Assembly: GCF_000723465.1 (NCBI RefSeq)
Contig: NZ_HF545616.1
Span: 930,001 to 994,000, forward strand
Direction: 5' to 3'
DNA: 64,000 nucleotides
Source of the DNA: Ruminococcus bicirculans (ex Wegman et al. 2014)
GTDB taxonomy: Bacteria; Bacillota; Clostridia; Oscillospirales; Ruminococcaceae
Part shown: piece by piece, positions 19,991 through 30,037 of the stretch
Layout of the letters: each line of letters starts with the position of its first letter
Position numbering within the stretch: position 1 is the first letter of the stretch
Made by a program: the position numbers and the translations under genes
The notes under the pieces: generated by a model
Told to the model about the DNA's origin: nothing
Databases searched by the model: none
The model's input: only the letters and a program-made list of their open reading frames with translations

Positions 19991-22327
19991 ATGATGAATG
20001 ATACTGCTAAACGCAGACGTATAAAAATAGGACTTTTGGTGAGCCACCTTGAAGATGATTTTGACGATGCGGTTGCAGAGGGCGCAATGATAGGCGCAGA
20101 GCAGTGCGACGCCGACCTCGTTATTTTTCCAGGCAGATATATAGATGGGGTCTATGCCGATAAGCTGAGAACGGTGTATGAGTATCAGTATAATACTTTG
20201 TTCGATATGGCGGCGGCAAATAAGTTCGACGTTCTGCTTGTGCTTATCGGCACACTTGGAACATATCTTGACAACGAGCATAAGGTTCAGTTTCTGAAAA
20301 AATTTGCTGGAACGCCTGTTATAACTATAACGGCACATATTGATGGTTATCCTTGTATCATGCTCGACAACAGAACGGGAATGAAGGAGGCTATAGAACA
20401 TCTTATAAAGGTGCATGGCTGTAAAAAGATAGGTATGGTAAGCGGACCTAAAACAAGTGATGATGCCCTTGAAAGACTTGACGTTTACAAGGAAACTCTT
20501 GAGGAAAATGGTATCATCTATGATGAAAAGCGTGTTGCATATGGTAATTTTTCGAAATTCTGTGTTGACGAAGTCGGAACGCTAATTGACGATAATCCAG
20601 AACTTGATGCTATCGTTTTTGCAAACGACCAGATGGCAATTGCAGGCTATAAGGCTATGGAAGAGCGTGGGATACGTCCTGGTAAGGATATCCTTGTGAC
20701 AGGCTTTGATGACGATCCAGTGGCTGAGGAGCTTAATCCGCATTTGACGACTGTCAAGGCTGACCCTTCTGAACTTGGCTATCATGCCGTTCAGGAGGCT
20801 GTGAACTATGTTATAAATAAGGCTATAAACAACGATAAGATCTCTTCAGAAATGGTAAGAAGAAATTCCTGCGGCTGTCAGGGCAACTCAAAATTAAAGA
20901 CCATATCTTTTGGTCGCATATCAGATGATCCGGAAGCGTTTGCAAGAAGAATGAGCCAGTTTTTGTTCAATAAATACAGTGCAAGTGAAACAACTGCGAA
21001 AATGCGAGAAGTTTACGTCAAGATAATATATGCACTTGATGATTATGCCCGTGAGGAAAATCTTGATAATGAGGTCAAAAAAGATAAGGTATTAGAAATG
21101 ATCTCAACTCTTGCCAGTGAAGAATTTTTTAGGTTTGTGAGCGTTGATGAGCTTTATGCTTCTGTTGAGTATATTCAGCAAAAGCTTATCTCTCGTTTTG
21201 ATAACATGGAGAAGCATTTGAAGTTAAATCAGACTTTTATTCAGATATACAAGATACTGGCAGAACGCAATGCGAATTATTGTAAGGAAAAGCTTGAGGA
21301 TAATGAGTTTCTTGCATGGCAGGCAAACTCTATCACAAGGGATATGCTTGTATTTGAAGCTTATGATGACAGAGCATATGAGACCGTTGTGGATAAGCTT
21401 ATGAGGCTTCATATGGAATCAAGCTTTCTGTTCAGCTTCGAGCCTGCCATTATTCACTTCGGTACAGATAAGTGGCAACCGCCGGAATATATGTATCTCA
21501 AAGCCTATCACAATGGTTCTGACGCTATCCAGCTCCCACATGAAGAGCAGGCTGTAAAGTATACAGAGCTGTTGTCGAATAAGTATCTGCCAACAGACAG
21601 ACGTTATACATTAGTGGTATCACCATTGTTCTCTAACGAGGAGCATTACGGAATACTGATGTGTGAGATAAAGCATGAGTATTTTAATTATTTGCAGTCT
21701 GTGACAGTTCAACTTTGTGCGGCACTTAAAATAATAACCTTGATGAAGCAGCAGGCTGTTACCCAGAAGCAGCTTAAAAAGAGCCTTATCGAGATCAAGG
21801 AAAACAATGAGCTTCTTCGAGATCTTTCAAGGCAGGACGCTTTGACGGGTTGCTACAACCGAAGGGGATTTTTTGAGGAGCTTCGTAAAAGACTCAGCAA
21901 TGACAAAAACGAGGGTGAAAAGGCTATCATGGTCTTTGCCGACCTTGACTGTCTGAAAACCATAAATGATAAATTTGGTCACGAGGAGGGCGACTTTGCT
22001 ATACTATCTGCGGCAAAGATACTTAAACACTCTTTTGGCAACAGTGAGATAGTGGGTCGTATAGGTGGCGATGAGTTCGTTGTATGCGCTTTTCTTGATA
22101 ACGCAATAGATATCCCGTCAATGAGAAACCATATAGAAGCGGTCACAAGAGAATACAATATTAAATATGCCGCCGATAAGCCATATATAATCCATACGAG
22201 CGTAGGCGTTTATCCGTTCGTATGCAGTGCCACGCTTGAGATAGGAGAGCTTCTCAGCCATGCTGATATCCTGCTTTATGAGGAGAAAAAGCACAAGAGA
22301 AGTATTCTTAAAAGCGATTATGAATAA
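19991..22327 (+). CDS. LacI-like ligand-binding domain fused to diguanylate cyclase (GGDEF)
   Basis: This is a 778-aa protein. Residues about 10-300 are a periplasmic-binding/LacI effector fold ('KIGLLVSHLEDDFDDAVAEG', 'AIEHLIKVHGCKKIGMVSG', 'AIVFANDQMAIAGYKAME', 'ILVTGFDDDPVAEELNPHLT') without a signal peptide or DNA-binding domain, so it should sense a cytoplasmic ligand. A conserved 'RRNSCGCQ' ends it. A helical middle region leads to a GGDEF domain with an intact GGDEF at about 692-696 and 'DALTGCYNRRGF'. No RxxD inhibitory site precedes it. It probably makes c-di-GMP in answer to a small molecule. ATG 19991 follows GGAGGATCATGAG. It lies 83 bases after the EAL/beta-helix gene, so the two may be co-transcribed. 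Confidence 0.88.
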   Translation: MMNDTAKRRRIKIGLLVSHLEDDFDDAVAEGAMIGAEQCDADLVIFPGRYIDGVYADKLRTVYEYQYNTLFDMAAANKFDVLLVLIGTLGTYLDNEHKVQFLKKFAGTPVITITAHIDGYPCIMLDNRTGMKEAIEHLIKVHGCKKIGMVSGPKTSDDALERLDVYKETLEENGIIYDEKRVAYGNFSKFCVDEVGTLIDDNPELDAIVFANDQMAIAGYKAMEERGIRPGKDILVTGFDDDPVAEELNPHLTTVKADPSELGYHAVQEAVNYVINKAINNDKISSEMVRRNSCGCQGNSKLKTISFGRISDDPEAFARRMSQFLFNKYSASETTAKMREVYVKIIYALDDYAREENLDNEVKKDKVLEMISTLASEEFFRFVSVDELYASVEYIQQKLISRFDNMEKHLKLNQTFIQIYKILAERNANYCKEKLEDNEFLAWQANSITRDMLVFEAYDDRAYETVVDKLMRLHMESSFLFSFEPAIIHFGTDKWQPPEYMYLKAYHNGSDAIQLPHEEQAVKYTELLSNKYLPTDRRYTLVVSPLFSNEEHYGILMCEIKHEYFNYLQSVTVQLCAALKIITLMKQQAVTQKQLKKSLIEIKENNELLRDLSRQDALTGCYNRRGFFEELRKRLSNDKNEGEKAIMVFADLDCLKTINDKFGHEEGDFAILSAAKILKHSFGNSEIVGRIGGDEFVVCAFLDNAIDIPSMRNHIEAVTREYNIKYAADKPYIIHTSVGVYPFVCSATLEIGELLSHADILLYEEKKHKRSILKSDYE

Positions 22328-22332
22328 CATTT

Positions 22333-22365
22333 GCAGGCTGTCTGAAAAAGGCAGCCTGCTTTTTG
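22333..22365 (+). terminator. Terminator after the GGDEF gene
   Basis: The 8-bp stem GCAGGCTG/CAGCCTGC (22333-22340 with 22352-22359) is followed by TTTTTGTTTTT. Confidence 0.82.
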
Positions 22366-22374
22366 TTTTTATGC

Positions 22375-22403
22375 TTGACAAAATATCATGGCTGTGATAT
22401 AAT
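22375..22403 (+). promoter_or_regulatory. Sigma-A promoter of the hflX leader transcript
   Basis: A perfect TTGACA-N17-TATAAT with TGNTATAAT character. The start of transcription near 22410 leaves a leader of about 200 bases before hflX. Confidence 0.88.
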
Positions 22404-22436
22404 AAAACATATTTTACGAAAGGAGCGTCGGATGAC

Positions 22437-22472
22437 ATGAGAATTACAAGAATATGGGTGAGAAACTATTAA
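22437..22472 (+). CDS. Putative 11-residue leader peptide of hflX
   Basis: ATG 22437 opens MRITRIWVRNY followed by TAA. It is preceded by AAAGGAG (22419-22425). A second ATG at 22432, closer to that ribosome binding site, gives only Met-Thr-stop, and its TGA overlaps this ATG. The peptide has three arginines and a Trp, and a terminator-like hairpin lies between it and hflX. This layout suggests ribosome-controlled attenuation. Translation is not proven. Confidence 0.5.
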   Translation: MRITRIWVRNY

Positions 22473-22535
22473 ACCGAATATCAGGCAAGTGCATTGGCAC
22501 AAGCCGCTCCGACTCTTCCGTATAACGTTTTGGTT

Positions 22536-22559
22536 ACACGCCTGAGGGTGTGTTTTTTT
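22536..22559 (+). terminator. Terminator-like attenuator hairpin upstream of hflX
   Basis: The stem ACAC(G)CC/GGGTGT (22536-22542 with 22546-22551, one bulge) is followed by seven T residues, 54 bases before the hflX start. It sits inside a larger possible helix of nine perfect pairs, 22501-22509 with 22578-22586. Confidence 0.6.
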
Positions 22560-22612
22560 ATGCCTGAAAAAGCCGAAGAGCGGCTTGATAACAGACATTA
22601 GGAGTGATTAAT

Positions 22613-23875
22613 ATGGCAGAAATGTTTGACAACACAATAAAAAAAGACCGTGTGCTGTTGGCGGCAGTGGACACAGGTTCGTATGACGTGGAGCTTTCCC
22701 TTGACGAGCTTGAAGAGCTGACAGAAACAGCAGGCGGTGAGGTGATAGCGAGAGTAACACAGAAAAGGCCGTCCTTTGACAGCGGTACCTGCATAGGCTC
22801 AGGCAGGCTTGAAGAAATGGCTGAGATATGCAGAAATGAAAATATTGACAGGATAGTTTTTGACTGCGAGCTTACAGCTACGCAGATAAGAAATATCGAG
22901 GACGTGTGCGGCGTTTTCACTATCGACAGAACTATGCTCATACTGGATATCTTTGCTCAGCGTGCGACTACTCGTGAGGGCAGATTGCAGGTAGAGATAG
23001 CACAGAATAAATACAGACTTCCAAGGCTTGCAGGCATGGGAACTAATATGTCACGTCTTGGCGGTGGTATCGGCACAAGAGGTCCTGGTGAGTCGAAGCT
23101 CGAAACTGACAAGCGACACATCAGAACACGTATTGCGGCACTTTCAGACGAGCTTAAGGAGATAGAGAAGCGTCGTGGGCTTATGAGAAAACGTCGCAAG
23201 AAAGACGGTGTTCTCACAGCGGCGATAGTGGGCTATACAAACGTGGGCAAATCCACACTGCTTAATTATCTTACAGAAGCGGGCGTGCTTGCAGAGAACA
23301 AGCTTTTTGCGACTTTGGAAACAACATCAAGGGCTATAGAGCTTCCTGACGGCAGGTCGGTGACGCTTATTGACACGGTAGGACTTATCAGACGTCTGCC
23401 GCATCAGCTTGTGGAAGCTTTCAAATCCACTCTTGAAGAGGCGGCAAGTGCGGACGTTATAATCCATATGTGCGACGCCTCGGCTGATGACTGCGAGGAG
23501 CAGGCAAAAGTTACCCTTGAACTGCTCAAAGAACTTGGCTGTGAGGGAATACCTGTGGTTACGGTGTTCAACAAGTGCGACAAAGTGCCTTATATAAACG
23601 AGCTTGACACATCAGGTGAAGCGGTGAAGATATCCGCCAAAAACGGCACAGGCATTGACAGCCTGCTAGCGGCTATACAAAGGGCGTTACCCGAAAACAG
23701 CGTAAGATGCAGGCTTCTTTTGCCTTTTGACAAGGCGGGTCTTGTGAACACCATAAGGCAGGAGGGCAGGATATTCAGCGAGGATTATACCGCTGAGGGT
23801 ATCGTTCTTGACGCTCTTGTGGATATCAAGGTCTATCATCTTGTGGAAAGCTATAAGGTAAAAAGTGAAGAATAA
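22613..23875 (+). CDS. hflX: Ribosome-associated GTPase HflX
   Basis: HflX binds the large ribosomal subunit and splits stalled or hibernating 70S ribosomes; some relatives give macrolide/lincosamide resistance. The 420 residues comprise the N-terminal HflX domain, a Gly-rich linker ('GGGIGTRGPGESKLETD') with a helical hairpin, the G domain with G1 'GYTNVGKST' (near 205), G3 'DTVGLI' and G4 'NKCD', and a short C-terminal domain. I take ATG 22613 because AGGAG lies eight bases before it; the GTG at 22604 overlaps that site. The leader upstream looks like an attenuator. Confidence 0.93.
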   Translation: MAEMFDNTIKKDRVLLAAVDTGSYDVELSLDELEELTETAGGEVIARVTQKRPSFDSGTCIGSGRLEEMAEICRNENIDRIVFDCELTATQIRNIEDVCGVFTIDRTMLILDIFAQRATTREGRLQVEIAQNKYRLPRLAGMGTNMSRLGGGIGTRGPGESKLETDKRHIRTRIAALSDELKEIEKRRGLMRKRRKKDGVLTAAIVGYTNVGKSTLLNYLTEAGVLAENKLFATLETTSRAIELPDGRSVTLIDTVGLIRRLPHQLVEAFKSTLEEAASADVIIHMCDASADDCEEQAKVTLELLKELGCEGIPVVTVFNKCDKVPYINELDTSGEAVKISAKNGTGIDSLLAAIQRALPENSVRCRLLLPFDKAGLVNTIRQEGRIFSEDYTAEGIVLDALVDIKVYHLVESYKVKSEE

Positions 23876-23920
23876 AGTGTTTTGCAAACGTTAAAAAAAT
23901 GTAAACTCTCGGTATGGCTA

Positions 23921-23949
23921 TTGACAAGCCCTGCCTGTGAGAGTATAAT
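23921..23949 (+). promoter_or_regulatory. Sigma-A promoter of the aro leader
   Basis: A perfect TTGACA-N17-TATAAT, 46 bases before the ATG of the aromatic-rich leader ORF. Confidence 0.88.
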
Positions 23950-23995
23950 AATCGTGGTTAGCAATAACAAATAAATCGAAAGGAAAAAACAGAAT

Positions 23996-24106
23996 ATGTC
24001 TACTGTTATCATGTCTGCAGTCTTTACATACTTCTTTATGAGCTTGAGCTACTTTTATGGCTTCGAGTTTTTTTGGCGTGTGAAGAAAGCGACGAGATCA
24101 GAATAG
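23996..24106 (+). CDS. Putative aromatic-rich leader peptide of the aro genes
   Basis: This is a 36-residue ORF from ATG 23996 to TAG 24104-24106, preceded by GAAAGGAAAAAACAGAAT. Of 36 residues, seven are Phe, three Tyr and one Trp, densest in 'TYFFMSLSYFYGFEFFW'. It lies between a consensus promoter and an intrinsic-terminator-like hairpin, and the next gene is DAHP synthase, the first step of aromatic amino acid synthesis. This matches the logic of leader peptides such as PheL. It could instead be a small membrane protein, because the same residues make it hydrophobic. No family is recognised. Confidence 0.65.
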   Translation: MSTVIMSAVFTYFFMSLSYFYGFEFFWRVKKATRSE

Positions 24107-24148
24107 GCGTATAGAGAAGTTTCTGTTTTTATATATGCGTTTATTATA

Positions 24149-24188
24149 AGCCGTGGCTTTCTTGTAAAAGAATGTCACGGCTGTTTTT
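24149..24188 (+). terminator. Attenuator-like terminator between leader ORF and aroF
   Basis: The outer stem is AGCCGTG/CACGGCT (24149-24155 with 24176-24182). The inner stem is TTCTT/AAGAA with loop GTAA. GTTTTTAT follows. The loop-side GCTTTCTT (24156-24163) is perfectly complementary to AAGAAAGC (24083-24090) inside the leader ORF, a possible antiterminator pairing. Confidence 0.7.
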
Positions 24189-24225
24189 ATTGCCTATACA
24201 AATTTGATTTTCGGAGGAAAGTAAC

Positions 24226-25248
24226 ATGATCATCGTATTGAAAAACAATTCACAGGAAAAACAGGTAGAAGAGCTTTTGAACTGGCTCGACCAGTTCCAT
24301 GTATCGACGAATCTGGTAGAGGGCGTTCATTCAAATGTTATCGGTCTTATTGGCGACACAACTCAGATCGATATAGAAGCAGTTCAGGCTAAGGAATGTG
24401 TTGAAAATGTACAGCGTGTTCAGGAGCCTTACAAGAATGCTAACAGAAAGTTCCACCCTGATAATACTGTTATCGACGTTGCAGGCAGAAAGATAGGCGG
24501 CGGAAAGCTTCAGGTCATTGCAGGTCCTTGCTCTGTTGAAACTGAGGAGCAGATAATCACAACTGCTATCGCTGTAAAGGAAGCAGGTGCAACAATGCTC
24601 AGAGGTGGCGCATTCAAGCCAAGAACTTCACCATATTCATTCCAGGGTCTTGGCAAGGAGGGCATCGACCTTCTCATTCAGGCTAGAAAGATAACAGGTC
24701 TGCCTATCGTTACTGAGATCATGGATCTTTCTGATCTTGACTGCTTTGCTGACGTTGACGTTGTTCAGGTAGGAGCAAGAAATATGCAGAATTTCACGCT
24801 TCTCAAGGCTCTCGGCAGAAGCGACAAGCCTGTTCTTCTCAAGAGAGGACTTTCATCAACACTTCAGGAGCTTCTCATGTCCGCTGAGTACATAATGTCT
24901 GAGGGCAATCAGAACGTTATCCTCTGTGAGAGAGGTATCCGCACATTCGAGCCTGCCACAAGAAATACTCTCGATCTTTCAGCCGTTCCTCTGCTCCAGC
25001 AGAAAACACACCTTCCTATCACTATCGACCCTAGCCACGCTACAGGTATCGCTTCACTTGTTGAGCCAATGGCACTTTGTGCTGTAACAGCAGGCTGTGA
25101 CGCACTTGAGATAGAGGTACACAACGACCCTAAGAACGCATGGAGCGATGGTGCGCAGTCACTTACTCCTGCACAGTTCGCTGAAACAATGAAGAAAGTT
25201 AAGGCACTTTCCGAGTTCATGGGCAAGCCTCTTGATGTAAACGAATAA
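24226..25248 (+). CDS. aroF: 3-deoxy-7-phosphoheptulonate synthase (type I-beta, FL domain)
   Basis: This 340-aa cytoplasmic enzyme joins phosphoenolpyruvate and erythrose-4-phosphate, the first step of the shikimate pathway. The first ~70 residues are a ferredoxin-like regulatory domain, as in Thermotoga-type DAHP synthases, where Phe and Tyr bind. The barrel follows, with 'VIAGPCSVETEEQI', 'LRGGAFKPRTSPYSFQGLG', 'VGARNMQNF', 'LLKRG', 'CERGIRTFE' and 'DPSHATG'. ATG 24226 follows TCGGAGGAAAGTAAC. It lies behind the aromatic-rich leader and hairpin, and its own terminator separates it from the rest of the aro genes. Confidence 0.95.
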   Translation: MIIVLKNNSQEKQVEELLNWLDQFHVSTNLVEGVHSNVIGLIGDTTQIDIEAVQAKECVENVQRVQEPYKNANRKFHPDNTVIDVAGRKIGGGKLQVIAGPCSVETEEQIITTAIAVKEAGATMLRGGAFKPRTSPYSFQGLGKEGIDLLIQARKITGLPIVTEIMDLSDLDCFADVDVVQVGARNMQNFTLLKALGRSDKPVLLKRGLSSTLQELLMSAEYIMSEGNQNVILCERGIRTFEPATRNTLDLSAVPLLQQKTHLPITIDPSHATGIASLVEPMALCAVTAGCDALEIEVHNDPKNAWSDGAQSLTPAQFAETMKKVKALSEFMGKPLDVNE

Positions 25249-25259
25249 ACAAGACATTG

Positions 25260-25288
25260 AAAAAGAGGTGTTTTCGCACCTCTTTTTC
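25260..25288 (+). terminator. Terminator after aroF
   Basis: An 11-bp perfect stem AAAAAGAGGTG/CACCTCTTTTT (25260-25270 with 25277-25287) lies just after the stop codon. Confidence 0.88.
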
Positions 25289-25317
25289 TTTACAAATATT
25301 CAGTTATGTGGTATAAT
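25289..25317 (+). promoter_or_regulatory. Sigma-A promoter of the LURP-aroB-aroA-aroC operon
   Basis: TTTACA-N17-TATAAT, placed directly behind the aroF terminator and 44 bases before the next gene. Confidence 0.75.
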
Positions 25318-25360
25318 GTTTTAGAACTGTAAATGGATAAAGTACAAAGGAGGAAGAGCG

Positions 25361-25831
25361 ATGAAACTTGTGCTTAAACAAAGGCTTTTTTCATGGTTTG
25401 ACAGCTATGATGTGTGCGACGAATACGGTAACGCAGTTTTCAGCGTAAAAGGCAGACTCGCATGGGGTCACTTGCTGGAGATATACGACAACATGGGAAA
25501 CAAGGTCGGCGTGCTGAAAGAAAAGGTGCTGAAAATTTTCCCTACCTTTGAGATATACATAGGCGGAGAGTATATGGGCTGTATAAAGAAAGAGTTCACC
25601 TTTTTCAAGCCAAAGTTCCATATAGATTTCTGCGGCTGGAGAGTGGACGGTGATATTTTCGGCTGGGACTATTCCGTTTATAGCGGTGCTGAACAGATAA
25701 TGTATGTGTCAAAGGAGCTTTTGCACCTTACTGATACCTATGTCATAGACGTTTATGACGACAGCAATGCTTTGGCAGGATTGCTCATTGCACTTGCGAT
25801 AGACGCCGAGAAATGCTCAGACGGCAATTAG
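25361..25831 (+). CDS. LURP-one-related family protein
   Basis: This 156-aa protein has the tandem beta-strand pattern of the LURP-one/Tubby-like fold: 'VCDEYGNAVFSVKGRLAWGHLLEIYDNMGNKVGVLKEKVL' style strands, then 'YIGGEYMGCIKKEFTFFKPKFHID' and 'GDIFGWDYSVYSG'. Bacterial members are mostly uncharacterised. No enzymatic motif is visible. It starts at ATG 25361 behind AAAGGAGGAAGAGCG and precedes aroB by 49 bases, so it is carried in the aro operon without an obvious link to aromatic synthesis. Confidence 0.72.
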   Translation: MKLVLKQRLFSWFDSYDVCDEYGNAVFSVKGRLAWGHLLEIYDNMGNKVGVLKEKVLKIFPTFEIYIGGEYMGCIKKEFTFFKPKFHIDFCGWRVDGDIFGWDYSVYSGAEQIMYVSKELLHLTDTYVIDVYDDSNALAGLLIALAIDAEKCSDGN

Positions 25832-25880
25832 GCTTTTATGATAGCTGTGTAAAAAATTGTACTGAAAGGTTTTGATATTA

Positions 25881-26990
25881 ATGAAATTCAACTGCGAGCT
25901 TAAAAGGGTCGTGGACGATTCTTATGATATAGAAATAGGCAGAAAATTGCAGGATACGCTGGTCAGCGACTTTAAAGGCGGTCTAGTGGGGAAGACAAAG
26001 AAATTTGCCATTGTGACGGATTCTATCGTTGTGGATCTCTATGGCAGAGATATTTACGACAGGCTCAACGCCGCAGGTCTGAAAGCCGAGCTTTTTGTAA
26101 TACCTGAGGGAGAAAAGTCCAAAACCAGGCAGATGAAAGAGTTTGTTGAGGACTCTATGCTTGAAAAAGGCTTTCGCCGTGACTGCTGTGTGGTAGCCGT
26201 TGGCGGCGGAGTTGTCACAGACCTGGCAGGCTTTGTTGCAGGAACATTCGGCAGAGGAGTGCCTTTTGTGAATTATGCCACAACGCTCCTTGCGGCGGCT
26301 GACGCTTCTGTGGGCGGAAAAACTGCCGTTGATACGCCACTTGCTACAAATCTTATAGGTCTGTTCAATCAGCCCAAGAAAGTTTATCTCGACATAGACA
26401 CATGGAAAACTCTGCCTGAAAAACAGCTTTCAAGCGGTCTTGCGGAAACTATAAAGCATGGCTGTCTTGGTGATAAGGAGCTGTTTGAGTATCTTGAAAA
26501 AAACGTGGAAAAGGTGCTTGAATGTGACGGTGAAGCCTGCGAGTATATCGCAAAGAAAAACTGCGAAGTCAAGTACAAAGTGGTAATGAAAGACGAGAGA
26601 GAGTCGGGTCTGAGAGAGGTGCTTAATCTCGGCCACACTGTTGGCAGAGCTATCGAAACTGTGTCTGATTATAGACTATATCATGGCGAAGCTGTAGCTA
26701 TCGGTATGGTGGCACAGTCAAGATTGGGCGAGAAGCTTGGCTTTATATCCCATGAAAATGAACAGCGTGTGGAAAAGCTTCTTGAAAGGGCAAAGCTTCC
26801 TACAAAAATACCTGACTATATTGACAGAAAGGCTCTTGTGAAAAAGCTTTATACAGATAAAAAGGTCCGTGACGGAAAGCTGAGATTTGTTTTCCAAAAA
26901 GAAATAGGCGAGATGATGTGCTTCGGTGAAAATCAGTACGGCAAAGAGATATCCGAGGAGCAGATTGCTGAAATAATCACAGAGATGTAA
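25881..26990 (+). CDS. aroB: 3-dehydroquinate synthase
   Basis: This 369-aa NAD- and metal-dependent enzyme converts DAHP to 3-dehydroquinate. It has 'VVAVGGGVVTDLAGFVAGTFGRGVPFVNYATTLLAAADASVGGKTAVD', the glycine-rich and substrate loops of the family, and metal ligands in 'GLAETIKHG', 'NLGHTVGRAIE' and 'YHGEAVAIGM'. ATG 25881 is preferred to a TTG three codons upstream because the latter would leave only two bases after the GAAAGG ribosome binding site. aroA starts 12 bases after its stop. Confidence 0.95.
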   Translation: MKFNCELKRVVDDSYDIEIGRKLQDTLVSDFKGGLVGKTKKFAIVTDSIVVDLYGRDIYDRLNAAGLKAELFVIPEGEKSKTRQMKEFVEDSMLEKGFRRDCCVVAVGGGVVTDLAGFVAGTFGRGVPFVNYATTLLAAADASVGGKTAVDTPLATNLIGLFNQPKKVYLDIDTWKTLPEKQLSSGLAETIKHGCLGDKELFEYLEKNVEKVLECDGEACEYIAKKNCEVKYKVVMKDERESGLREVLNLGHTVGRAIETVSDYRLYHGEAVAIGMVAQSRLGEKLGFISHENEQRVEKLLERAKLPTKIPDYIDRKALVKKLYTDKKVRDGKLRFVFQKEIGEMMCFGENQYGKEISEEQIAEIITEM

Positions 26991-27002
26991 CGGAGGATAG
27001 CG

Positions 27003-28232
27003 ATGAACATAACTGTATTTCCGAAAAAACTCAGCGGACAGGTGACAGTTCCGCCCTCAAAAAGCGTTGCACACAGAATGGTGATAGCGGCGGCGCTGTC
27101 AAACGGCATTTCTGAGATAACAAATCTTTATCCCTCGGTGGATATCCTTGCGACTATGGATTGCATGAGGGCGCTTGGGGCGAAAATAGATTTTGACGGC
27201 GACAAGGCTGTGATAGAGGGCATAAAGGATATTCCTGAGAGCGCAGTTTTGGATTGCTGTGAAAGCGGCTCAACGCTGAGATTTCTCATACCTGTTGCTT
27301 GTGCGCTTGGGGTGGATACTCAGTTCATCGGCAGGGGCAGGCTTCCGCAAAGACCTATAACACCATATCTTGAAGAGTTTCCAAAGCATGGCGTAAGCTT
27401 TGAATACAACAACACTATGCCTTTTTCCACTAATGGAAAGCTCACAGGGGGCAAGTTCTATGTTGACGGTGGAATATCTTCTCAGTTTATCACAGGGCTT
27501 CTGTTTGCTCTGCCGCTTCTTGAGGAGGACAGCGAGATAATACTCACTTCTCATTTGGAGTCAAAGCCATATGTTGACATAACTCTAGGCACTTTGAGAG
27601 AGCATGGTTGTCAGGTGGAGGAAACAAAGAACGGATATTTTGTAAAGGGCGGTCAGCATTATATGCCTTTTAGTGGCAGAGTTGAGGGGGATTATTCTCA
27701 GGCGGCTTTCTTCAAGGTGGCAAATTCTTTGGGCAGTGATATTGATATCGCAGGGCTCTCTGAAAAATCTTTTCAGGGAGATAAAAAAATTGTTGAAATA
27801 TGCGAGAAAATAGTGTATAATAAAAATGGCGGTTTGCAGCCTTTTGACCTCGATTGCTCGGATATACCCGACCTTGTGCCTGTTCTTACAGTACTTGGAG
27901 GCTTCTGCGAAGGAAAAAGCTATATACGAAATGCCGCACGTCTTAGGATAAAGGAGTGCGACAGGCTTTCGGCTATCTCACAGTGCCTTAACGCAATTGG
28001 CGGAAAGGTAACTGAGCTTGAGGACGGATTGGAGATAGAGGGCGTTGGCTCACTGAATGGCGGAGAAGTTGACAGCTTCAACGACCACAGGATCGCAATG
28101 TCAATGGCGGTGGCTGCCACAAGATGTACTTCACCACTGAAGATAAACGGTGCGGAGTGCGTCAGCAAGTCATATCCCGATTTCTTTGAGGTATATGAGA
28201 GCATCGGAGGAGAGATAAGCCGTGAGCCTTAA
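27003..28232 (+). CDS. aroA: 3-phosphoshikimate 1-carboxyvinyltransferase (EPSP synthase)
   Basis: This 409-aa enzyme adds enolpyruvate to shikimate-3-phosphate. Recognisable motifs are 'VPPSKSVAHRMVIAAAL' (substrate-binding Lys and Ser), 'CCESGSTLRFLIPVACALG', 'GRGRLPQRPI', 'SSQFITGLLFALPLL', 'IPDLVPVLTVLG', 'RIKECDRLSAI' and 'FNDHRIAMSMAVA'. The length is slightly under the usual 425-430. CGGAGGATAGCG precedes ATG 27003. It is the middle gene of the aroB-aroA-aroC run. Confidence 0.95.
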   Translation: MNITVFPKKLSGQVTVPPSKSVAHRMVIAAALSNGISEITNLYPSVDILATMDCMRALGAKIDFDGDKAVIEGIKDIPESAVLDCCESGSTLRFLIPVACALGVDTQFIGRGRLPQRPITPYLEEFPKHGVSFEYNNTMPFSTNGKLTGGKFYVDGGISSQFITGLLFALPLLEEDSEIILTSHLESKPYVDITLGTLREHGCQVEETKNGYFVKGGQHYMPFSGRVEGDYSQAAFFKVANSLGSDIDIAGLSEKSFQGDKKIVEICEKIVYNKNGGLQPFDLDCSDIPDLVPVLTVLGGFCEGKSYIRNAARLRIKECDRLSAISQCLNAIGGKVTELEDGLEIEGVGSLNGGEVDSFNDHRIAMSMAVAATRCTSPLKINGAECVSKSYPDFFEVYESIGGEISREP

Positions 28233-28318
28233 CGTGGGCTAGTACAAAAATTTGTACTGATCTGGCGGGTATCTGCCGTTATTTATACAGGCTTTATAAG
28301 CTGACAGGAGGAAGTAAA

Positions 28319-29410
28319 ATGTCATCAACATGGAACAACAATATAGGCTTTACCGTTTTCGGTGAGAGCCACGGCCCTGCAATAGGCGTTGTTATGGATA
28401 ATGTACCGCCGGGGGAGAGCATCGACCTTGACAAGATATATCAATTTATGGCAAGAAGAGCGCCTAAGCAGAACAAGACCTCTACACAGAGAAAAGAAAA
28501 GGATATGCCGCAGATAATGTCTGGCTATTTCAACGGCAAGACTACGGGTACTCCTCTTTGTGCGCTTATAGCCAATACAGACCAGCATTCACAGGATTAT
28601 TCAAATCTTTCAAGGCTTGCAAGACCAGGTCACGCTGATTATACAGGCGCATTGAGATACAGAGGCTTCAATGATGTAAGAGGCGGCGGACATTTTTCAG
28701 GCAGACTTACTGCGCCCCTATGCTTTGCAGGAGCAGTGGCAGGTCAGATACTTGAAAAAAGAGGTATCTATGTGGGCGCTCATATCGCAGAGATCCATGG
28801 CATAAAGGATAAGGCTTTTGACCCTATCAATACCACTAAGGATATGATAAGGGAAGTTCGTGAGAAAGAGTTCCCGACTATTATCGACGTTCAGGGCAAC
28901 GAAATGATAAAGGAGATAGACAAGGCAAGAAAGGATAAGGACAGTGTTGGCGGAATTATAGAATGTATCGCTATCAATGTTCCAGCCGGTATCGGCTCGC
29001 CTATCTTTGACGGACTTGAAAACTCTATAGCTCAGCTTATTTTCGGTATCCCTGCGGTAAAGGGTCTGGAGTTTGGTGCAGGCTTTAAGGTGGCGGAAAT
29101 GACAGGTTCGGAGAACAATGATGAGTTCTATGTAAATGATAAGGGTCACGTTGTGACAAAGACAAACAATCACGGCGGAATACTGGGCGGAATAGCTTCT
29201 GGTATGCCTATCACACTTAGAGTTGCTTTCAAGCCTACTCCGTCAATAGCAAGACCGCAGGCAACTGTGGACTATTCAGCTATGAAAAATGAAACTCTCG
29301 AAGTAAAGGGCAGACACGACCCTTGTGTTGTTCCAAGGGCTGTGCCATGTGTTGAGGCGGCTGTTAATATAGCTTTGCTCAATCATATGCTTGAATACCC
29401 AAATTTTTAG
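28319..29410 (+). CDS. aroC: Chorismate synthase
   Basis: This 363-aa FMN-dependent enzyme forms chorismate from EPSP. Signatures are 'FGESHGPAIGVVMDNVPPG', 'SRLARPGHADYTGALRYRG', 'DVRGGGHFSGRLTAPLCFAG' (the clostridial variant of the ARETA signature), 'NNHGGILGGIASGMPI' and 'GRHDPCVVPRAVPCVEA'. AGGAGGAAGTAAA precedes ATG 28319. The 86-base gap from aroA contains the dyad AGTACAAA-AA-TTTGTACT (28241-28258). It completes the last steps of the pathway in this cluster. Confidence 0.95.
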   Translation: MSSTWNNNIGFTVFGESHGPAIGVVMDNVPPGESIDLDKIYQFMARRAPKQNKTSTQRKEKDMPQIMSGYFNGKTTGTPLCALIANTDQHSQDYSNLSRLARPGHADYTGALRYRGFNDVRGGGHFSGRLTAPLCFAGAVAGQILEKRGIYVGAHIAEIHGIKDKAFDPINTTKDMIREVREKEFPTIIDVQGNEMIKEIDKARKDKDSVGGIIECIAINVPAGIGSPIFDGLENSIAQLIFGIPAVKGLEFGAGFKVAEMTGSENNDEFYVNDKGHVVTKTNNHGGILGGIASGMPITLRVAFKPTPSIARPQATVDYSAMKNETLEVKGRHDPCVVPRAVPCVEAAVNIALLNHMLEYPNF

Positions 29411-29437
29411 AGAAATTTCCAAAGGAGGATTGATAGC

Positions 29438-30037
29438 TTGGTACAAAATCCTGAGGCTCATATATCAGAGAACATGAAGAACATTTCCGACGTGTATGAG
29501 GTTCAAATACTTCTGGCTTATTTTCTCGGTCAGATAAATCAGCTTTGTACGCCTAATCAGCTTACTGAGATAGCCACGGGCGAAGGCGTTGTGAATTATT
29601 TTGTGTACACTGAGGCTGTCAGCAGAATGTTGGAAAACGGCACGCTGGAGCTTGCGGAAATAGAAGGCACGAATTACTATCGGCTCACTGAAAAGGGCAT
29701 AGAGGGCGCTGAGAAATTCAAAAAACTTGTGCCGAAAAGTTTTAGAGATAAGATATATGCGGCAGGTCTAAGACTGTTCGTCAAGCTTAAAAACGATCGT
29801 GACGTAAGCTTTGATATAAAGCCTGCAAAGCGTGGTTATAACGTGCATTGCCGTTGCTGTGACGATGATATGGTGCTTATGGACATAACTCTTTACGCAC
29901 CTGATCAGGAGCAGGCAAATTATATAAAATCGAAAATTCAGATGAATCCTACAGATTTCTATTGCAGAGTGGTGGACTATATAATCGAGAACGAGGAATA
30001 TGTGCCGTCTGCTGCAGAGGAGCAGGGATTGTTCTAA
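29438..30037 (+). CDS. DUF4364 family protein (winged-helix type)
   Basis: This 199-aa protein matches my memory of the clostridial DUF4364 family: 'VYEVQILLAYFLGQINQLCTPNQL' near the N-terminus, 'NYFVYTEAVSRMLENG', 'YYRLTEKGIEGAEKF' (a wing-like strand), then a C-terminal alpha/beta part. A role in gene regulation is plausible but not shown. It starts with TTG 29438, selected because AAAGGAGG ends nine bases upstream. It follows aroC by 27 bases and ends the operon before an intrinsic terminator. Confidence 0.8.
   Translation: MVQNPEAHISENMKNISDVYEVQILLAYFLGQINQLCTPNQLTEIATGEGVVNYFVYTEAVSRMLENGTLELAEIEGTNYYRLTEKGIEGAEKFKKLVPKSFRDKIYAAGLRLFVKLKNDRDVSFDIKPAKRGYNVHCRCCDDDMVLMDITLYAPDQEQANYIKSKIQMNPTDFYCRVVDYIIENEEYVPSAAEEQGLF

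Follow-up and report, generated by a model that had tools for sequence, protein, structure and literature searches.

A candidate aromatic leader-peptide attenuator ahead of the DAHP synthase gene aroF in Ruminococcus bicirculans and its relatives

How is aroF, the gene for DAHP synthase (3-deoxy-7-phosphoheptulonate synthase), controlled in Ruminococcus bicirculans? The question is raised by a stretch of 64,000 nucleotides of its genome (contig NZ_HF545616.1, positions 930,001 to 994,000 of the forward strand), hereafter called the window, in which a short open reading frame (ORF) with a start codon and a ribosome-binding site, as predicted from sequence, is present between a promoter and aroF. 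An earlier note on this DNA, made from the letters alone, had read the ORF as a leader peptide rich in aromatic residues and the region as an attenuator with the logic of pheL and trpL. In those enterobacterial attenuators, a leader peptide rich in codons for the product of the pathway is combined with four alternating RNA strands and a terminator ahead of the first enzyme gene. The aroF leader shares all of these: product codons, four predicted strands and a terminator before the first enzyme gene. From its sequence and from comparison with its relatives, we conclude that it is very probably a ribosome-mediated leader-peptide transcription attenuator.

The promoter, which the earlier note had called perfect, matched the consensus at 12 of 12 positions in our scan (23921-23949; Table 1), and the leader transcript would be expected to start at about position 23956. 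The 36-codon ORF with its 11 aromatic residues was confirmed (23996-24106). Beyond it, the RNA from 24107 to 24192 folds at -29.3 kcal/mol (z -6.6), none of 200 shuffled sequences folding as well, and holds a 14-pair hairpin followed by a U-tract, which bears out the terminator-like hairpin proposed ahead of aroF. In the window this terminator starts 42 nt past the leader stop (24149). It went unreported by a simple terminator scan, probably because of an internal mismatch.

Folding of the window RNA paired strand 1 with strand 2 (1:2) and strand 3 with strand 4 (3:4). When the RNA upstream of 24077 was removed and strand 4 was only partly included, strand 2 paired with strand 3 (2:3). The segments that had been expected to pair, AAGAAAGC in the ORF and GCTTTCTT in the hairpin, were found precisely at 24083-24090 and 24156-24163, and the fold obtained without upstream RNA joins strand 2 to the 5' arm of the terminator as the earlier note had anticipated. 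From these features we infer that the ORF is translated, that ribosomes stall in it, that polymerase and ribosome are suitably timed and that the device responds to Phe and Tyr. The leader RNA can fold either as 1:2 plus 3:4, the terminator, or as 2:3, the antiterminator. While charged tRNA-Phe and tRNA-Tyr (perhaps also tRNA-Trp) are plentiful, the ribosome would pass the aromatic codons, strand 2 would be covered or re-paired with strand 1, and strand 3, left free, would allow the terminator to end transcription ahead of aroF. When charged tRNA is scarce, the ribosome would stall at one of the 11 aromatic codons (codons 10-27), covering strand 1 and exposing strand 2; 2:3 would then form before the synthesis of strand 4, and the polymerase would read through into aroF.

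We found a DAHP synthase match in all 29 genomes of the genus Ruminococcus that were searched. A close aroF ortholog (73-100% identity) is present in 28 of them, the other genome (G005) holding only a 61% relative, and the leader ORF accompanies every one of the 28 close orthologs (L001-L028). Each of the 28 peptides carries 7-13 aromatic residues; the conservation of aromatic codons among relatives, which had been proposed as a check, is thus complete among the orthologs of the genus. Over 1063 residues, the leaders are composed of 20.6% Phe, 5.2% Tyr and 1.8% Trp, and since Phe and then Tyr are the most frequent aromatic residues, Phe (with Tyr) is probably the main signal, as judged from codon counts. 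In the alignment of leader DNA, every gap in the first 100 columns is of 3 nt. A V/A-F-T-Y-F core is common to all 28 peptides, with the ATG 8 codons ahead of it in 26. The core codons TTT (first Phe) and ACA (Thr) are found in 28 of 28 leaders and the codons before the core vary freely; in the same 28 downstream DAHP synthase genes, TTT makes up 60 of 238 Phe codons and ACA 160 of 594 Thr codons. That these codons are fixed in the leaders but a minority in the genes suggests that the RNA is constrained and not the peptide alone.

The core TTT and ACA codons and the distance from the start codon were also seen to be more conserved than strand 2, the pairing partner of strand 1. In six leaders (L010, L012, L013, L015, L017 and L021), a promoter like that of the window was not evident by eye just upstream of the ORF (L013 was also scanned), and in the same six the ORF seems to lie close behind the end of the preceding gene. 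In many genomes of the genus there is another DAHP synthase, a paralog of about 60-62% identity, and no aromatic leader was seen in the three upstream regions of this paralog that were examined (L029, L030 and L170).

The RNA elements were likewise found throughout the genus. A terminator is present in all 28 orthologs (25 found by script and 3, L010, L015 and L027, by eye), and its hairpin lies 18-42 nt past the leader stop in the 25 placed by script. Compensatory changes were observed in 7 of the 11 consensus terminator pairs in the alignment of 28 and in 3 of the 7 pairs of the inner stem of the 1:2 hairpin. Because RNAalifold on the MAFFT alignment misaligns the terminators between groups, 2:3 was tested by duplex energies. 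The duplex is possible in 28 of 28 species, at -13.7 to -24.2 kcal/mol, and its partners shift in step by lineage, GUAUGAAAGC occurring with GCUUUCGUAY and, in the other group, GUGUGCAAA with UUUGCACGC. Pairs formed within a species have a mean energy of -19.3 kcal/mol, compared to -15.3 kcal/mol for pairs made with the strands of other species, and 0 of 10000 permutations did as well, a comparison in which the relatedness of the species is still contained. Furthermore, when strand 2 was recoded synonymously, the natural 2:3 duplex outdid the mean of the recodings in 26 of 28 species and ranked within the best 5% in 12.

The effect of a stalled ribosome was modelled by placing a ribosome at each codon in turn and folding the RNA as far as the terminator loop; 16 nt from the start of the P-site were masked, taken as the footprint of the ribosome. 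Roughly 10-17 2:3 pairs were obtained with the ribosome at most codons between about 3 and 26 (codon 15 of L008 being an exception), and later stalls, which cover strand 2, gave few or none. With no ribosome on the RNA, the complete terminator formed with a probability of 0.78-1.00 in all 28 species. The aromatic codons lay inside the effective range of stall positions in 91.1% of cases, compared to 63.6% (sd 2.4) when residues were permuted within each peptide (0 of 2000 permutations as high); for six representatives the figure was 92.8% (0 of 5000). In the leader of the window, W27 is both the last aromatic codon and the last effective stall position. Aromatic codons therefore sit where a stall would free strand 2, which supports the pheL/trpL-type logic put forward in the earlier note.

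The same RNA switch could be thrown by arrest of the nascent chain, the invariant F-T-Y-F stalling the ribosome when it binds a small molecule, either an aromatic amino acid in free form or some other, in the manner of TnaC or Erm leaders. Such an arrest would suit the occurrence of the core in 28 of 28 peptides and of an ATG 8 codons before it in 26, and the 2:3/3:4 switch cannot tell it from stalling on codons. However, the core is conserved at the RNA level too, with TTT and ACA in all 28, as strand 1 would require; the aromatic codons are spread across the effective range; and most leaders of other families (see below) are without the core yet have many aromatic codons. We therefore regard nascent-chain arrest as quite improbable, and stalling on aromatic codons as the preferred reading.

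Outside the genus, a profile of the peptide matched 20 of 297 genomes of the family at E up to 0.01, 16 of them outside Ruminococcus, and 11 of these 16 matches lie upstream of DAHP synthase. At the level of the order it matched 2 of 394 genomes, that of the window itself and G041 (L080, upstream of DAHP synthase). A DNA pattern run over one genome per species (84,980 species) revealed 21 stretches, 18 of them just upstream of DAHP synthase; the other three (L061, L066 and L072) adjoin no DAHP synthase gene and were taken as chance matches. Named records carrying the same leader include R. albus.

As the peptide profile proved too narrow at the order level, scans anchored on the gene were used. 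A region upstream of DAHP synthase was counted when it held an ORF of 15-60 codons, of whose residues at least 6 and no less than 20% were aromatic, with a terminator within 60 nt behind it. The family set of 89 upstream regions comprised 28 loci of the family search, L080 and 60 further places taken in score order, lower-scoring ones being left out; it passed over two known hits (G126:C57 and G080:C49), one at the start of a contig and one beginning at residue 2, and it includes L170, the paralog from the same genus. The class set (60 regions from 44 families) and a set from beyond the class (40 regions) were picked to spread over families. An aromatic ORF with a terminator, in most cases encoding a different peptide, was found in 62 of the 89 family regions and in 32 of the 60 class regions, the latter representing 24 of the 44 families. 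Beyond the class there were 10 in 40, nine of them among the twelve highest-scoring regions, in a set that has no shuffle control. Dinucleotide shuffles matched in 2 of 445 cases for the family set and, in a larger control, in 9 of 890 and 2 of 600 (11 of 1490) for the family and class sets; reverse complements matched in 0 of 89 and 1 of 60. When the aromatic residues were replaced by other five-codon sets, HQM, NKW, DEM and CNW, the matches numbered 2, 9, 3 and 6 of 89 and 0, 9, 3 and 2 of 60. Larger residue sets matched more often (in the 89 and the 60 regions, LIV 40 and 16, STA 54 and 19, KRE 19 and 13, GPC 19 and 2) because they have more codons and because the leaders are also rich in other residues. 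Under a stall, pairing of the terminator arm with upstream RNA was better for a leader's own arm than for arms taken from other leaders in 81 of 94 cases by mean and in 76 of 94 by maximum. A motif like GFYFSAGYFCC(K)K recurs across families (L102, L109, L111, L116, L125, L201, L207, L210 and L235), which suggests common descent or a shared constraint.

This distribution also bears on whether the ORF encodes a small hydrophobic protein with a function of its own, in which case the hairpin would be its ordinary terminator and aroF would have another promoter. Such a protein would accord with the hydrophobic character of the peptide and with the short distance from the end of its ORF to the terminator. 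Against this, codons of the peptide itself are able to pair with the terminator's 5' arm in all 28 species, and the scan found no promoter-like site on the + strand between the terminator and aroF. The peptide of the window gave only a sub-threshold match in Pfam, with no family above cut-off, and no match in NCBIfam. A conserved small membrane protein without the hairpin was one of the cases that the earlier note had named as refuting its reading; in other families the peptides mostly differ in sequence, yet they are aromatic and stand in the same place, and the terminator persists. A small protein with its own function is thus highly improbable, and the attenuator remains the preferred reading.

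Could the region instead contain a T-box or another ligand-binding riboswitch, the ORF being fortuitous? T-boxes are a common device in this genome, where we found ten matches, six of them over cut-off. Those ahead of trpE (L081) and tyrS (L082) are over cut-off and that ahead of pheS (L089) is below it, the three genes being named from protein fragments. None of the ten is at aroF, and an Rfam scan of window positions 20000-30000 up to E = 1 returned neither a T-box nor a leader family (Phe, Trp or others) nor any other match, in agreement with the earlier note, which had seen no T-box here. The in-frame gaps and the coding conservation of the ORF also speak against such a riboswitch. Further Rfam scans, which covered the class and beyond-class regions, revealed T-boxes in 3 of the 60 former (L204, L218 and L230, each in the orientation of the gene) and in 2 of the 40 latter (L253 and L265). 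The remark that Clostridia more often use T-boxes suits the rest of the genome, but upstream of DAHP synthase leader ORFs outnumber T-boxes by 32 to 3 in the 60 class regions. We consider a riboswitch at aroF to be vanishingly improbable. In this organism the aromatic tRNA synthetases and the tryptophan branch appear to be under T-boxes and the common first step, as far as these data show, under the leader peptide.

How does this leader compare with known systems? It departs from pheL and trpL in having no Rfam match, in the length of its peptide (36-42 codons) and in its gene, DAHP synthase. Furthermore, its strand 2 forms part of the coding region and precedes the stop, whereas that of trpL comes after the stop. 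Brewer et al. described uORFC-13-1, a predicted upstream ORF (uORF) with at least one Phe codon that precedes aroF in Acholeplasma and adjoins an intrinsic terminator, and proposed attenuation (PMC8632094). The 24 examples of uORFC-13-1 were reported from Acholeplasma and environmental sequences only, and it is by its description that we liken it to the aroF leader (PMC8632094). In Fig. 6b of Stav et al., two F/Y uORF candidates are shown at shikimate genes, in a work on five genomes that include Clostridium novyi; the text gives neither their source genome nor their genes (PMC6429828). Like the aroF leader, these candidates have Phe/Tyr codons and stand at shikimate genes, and they may already include a member of the class described here (PMC6429828). 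Leader-peptide attenuation is otherwise reported in another Firmicute for the ilv-leu operon of Staphylococcus aureus, whose leucine-rich attenuator peptide has genetic support; its amino acids and RNA folds differ from those of the aroF leader (PMC5794164). Histidine leader peptides are reported in Firmicutes for his operons (PMC9413887) and for hisS/hisZ (PMC2965389) and, like the aroF leader, replace T-boxes in Gram-positive bacteria, but they concern other genes and few lineages. Our search of the open-access literature found no aromatic leader reported for Ruminococcus; for the class as a whole, the point is left open by the unstated origin of the Fig. 6b candidates (PMC6429828). This kind of leader is already known, since the aroF uORF of Acholeplasma (PMC8632094) and the shikimate uORF candidates (PMC6429828) precede it. 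The present analysis adds a four-strand architecture in which strand 2 is part of the ORF, together with the wide distribution.

Several results weigh against ribosome-mediated attenuation, or against its reach, beginning with the fact that all of the evidence is computational and comes from sequence and folding. When one representative per group was taken, the correct assignment of each strand 2 to its strand 3 ranked at a median of 4 among 120 (worst 17) and came first in 17% of the choices. In L008 and L027, 2:3 is no better than synonymous recodings, and the median fraction is 0.062. The 1:2 pairing surpasses the average synonymous recoding of strand 2 in 27 of 28 species, but weakly (median fraction 0.18). 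Covariation of the alternative stems, another check proposed in the earlier note, was clear for the terminator and partial for 2:3, and there was little or nearly none for 1:2, where strand 1 hardly varies. In the truncated-transcript model, five of the 28 species (L010, L011, L022, L024 and L025) form 2:3 with no ribosome present; the terminator still wins in all five when the full transcript is modelled, and folding alone cannot explain these exceptions. Upstream of other DAHP synthase genes, no match was found in 27 of 89, 28 of 60 and 30 of 40 regions, and a few of the matches look spurious (L147, L205 and L274). For the 94 leaders outside the genus set, the terminator arm made a mean of 12.0 pairs with upstream RNA under a stall and already 9.1 without a ribosome, so that the switch is less clear-cut outside the genus.

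A further difficulty concerns the coupling of transcription and translation. Attenuation of this kind needs the ribosome to be near the polymerase. According to a review, Johnson et al. 2020 argued that a short distance from stop codon to terminator marks runaway transcription (PMC7858274). Among the genes of the window (44 non-overlapping ORFs of at least 100 codons), a terminator was detected for 15, and in 8 of these 15 the hairpin starts no more than 12 nt past the stop, which also counts against the attenuator. Runaway transcription would undermine coupling unless the polymerase pauses. Coupling may be local and assisted by a pause at the 1:2 hairpin; otherwise, the distance is a proxy that fails here. 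As a tentative proposal, to which we give somewhat less than even credence, leader attenuation of DAHP synthase would be old, diversified and class-wide, replacing T-boxes at this gene, and would work despite runaway-type terminators by means of a programmed pause of the polymerase at the long 1:2 hairpin within the leader ORF.

The leader region is preceded by hflX (22604-23875), and aroF is followed by the gene for a LURP-one-related (LOR) domain protein, then aroB, aroA and aroC. The hairpin behind aroF and the promoter-like site that comes next suggest that the device probably controls aroF alone, and aroF is probably monocistronic. The LOR domain match is in a 156-residue protein encoded at 25361-25831, between aroF and aroB. 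Further upstream, a large protein (19991-22327) shows a GGDEF motif by eye, and its N-terminal part resembles a LacI-type/periplasmic-binding sensor.

Table 1. Features of the aroF leader locus and its flanks; positions are those of the window.
Feature	Positions	Strand	Basis or remark
Promoter, TTGACA (23921-23926), 17 nt, TATAAT (23944-23949)	23921-23949	+	Sigma-70-type; scan, 12/12 consensus matches
Shine-Dalgarno-like AAAGGA of the leader peptide	23979-23984	+	Sequence
Leader peptide ORF, ATG, 36 codons, MSTVIMSAVFTYFFMSLSYFYGFEFFWRVKKATRSE	23996-24106	+	11 aromatic residues: 7 F, 3 Y, 1 W
Strand 1, GTCTTTACATAC, codons V9-Y12	24020-24031	+	Can pair with strand 2
Inner stem of 1:2 hairpin (24042-24048 with 24062-24068); loop holds aromatic codons	24042-24068	+	Compensatory changes
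Strand 2, within codons 28-34	24078-24095	+	Pairs with strand 1 or strand 3
Extra hairpin between leader stop and terminator	24107-24138	+	Local fold; no role assigned
Strand 3, 5' arm of terminator	24149-24163	+	Fold, comparison
Strand 4 (24168-24182) and U-tract (24183-24191) of terminator	24168-24191	+	Fold, compensatory changes
Shine-Dalgarno GGAGG of aroF	24213-24217	+	Sequence
aroF, DAHP synthase, B. subtilis type	24226-25248	+	PRK08673 and TIGR01361 matches
Near-symmetric terminator-like hairpin, 14 nt past aroF stop	25259-25288	+	Also scored on minus strand
Promoter-like site behind aroF 3' hairpin	25289-25317	+	Scan

These observations suggest that control of entry into the aromatic pathway in the style of pheL and trpL is common in gut Firmicutes, where T-boxes would usually be expected. 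In these genomes, a short ORF ahead of DAHP synthase is in many cases probably a regulatory leader. A conserved attenuator that depends on the ribosome, in bacteria whose transcription is argued to outpace translation, would provide a ready natural reporter of local coupling between transcription and translation.
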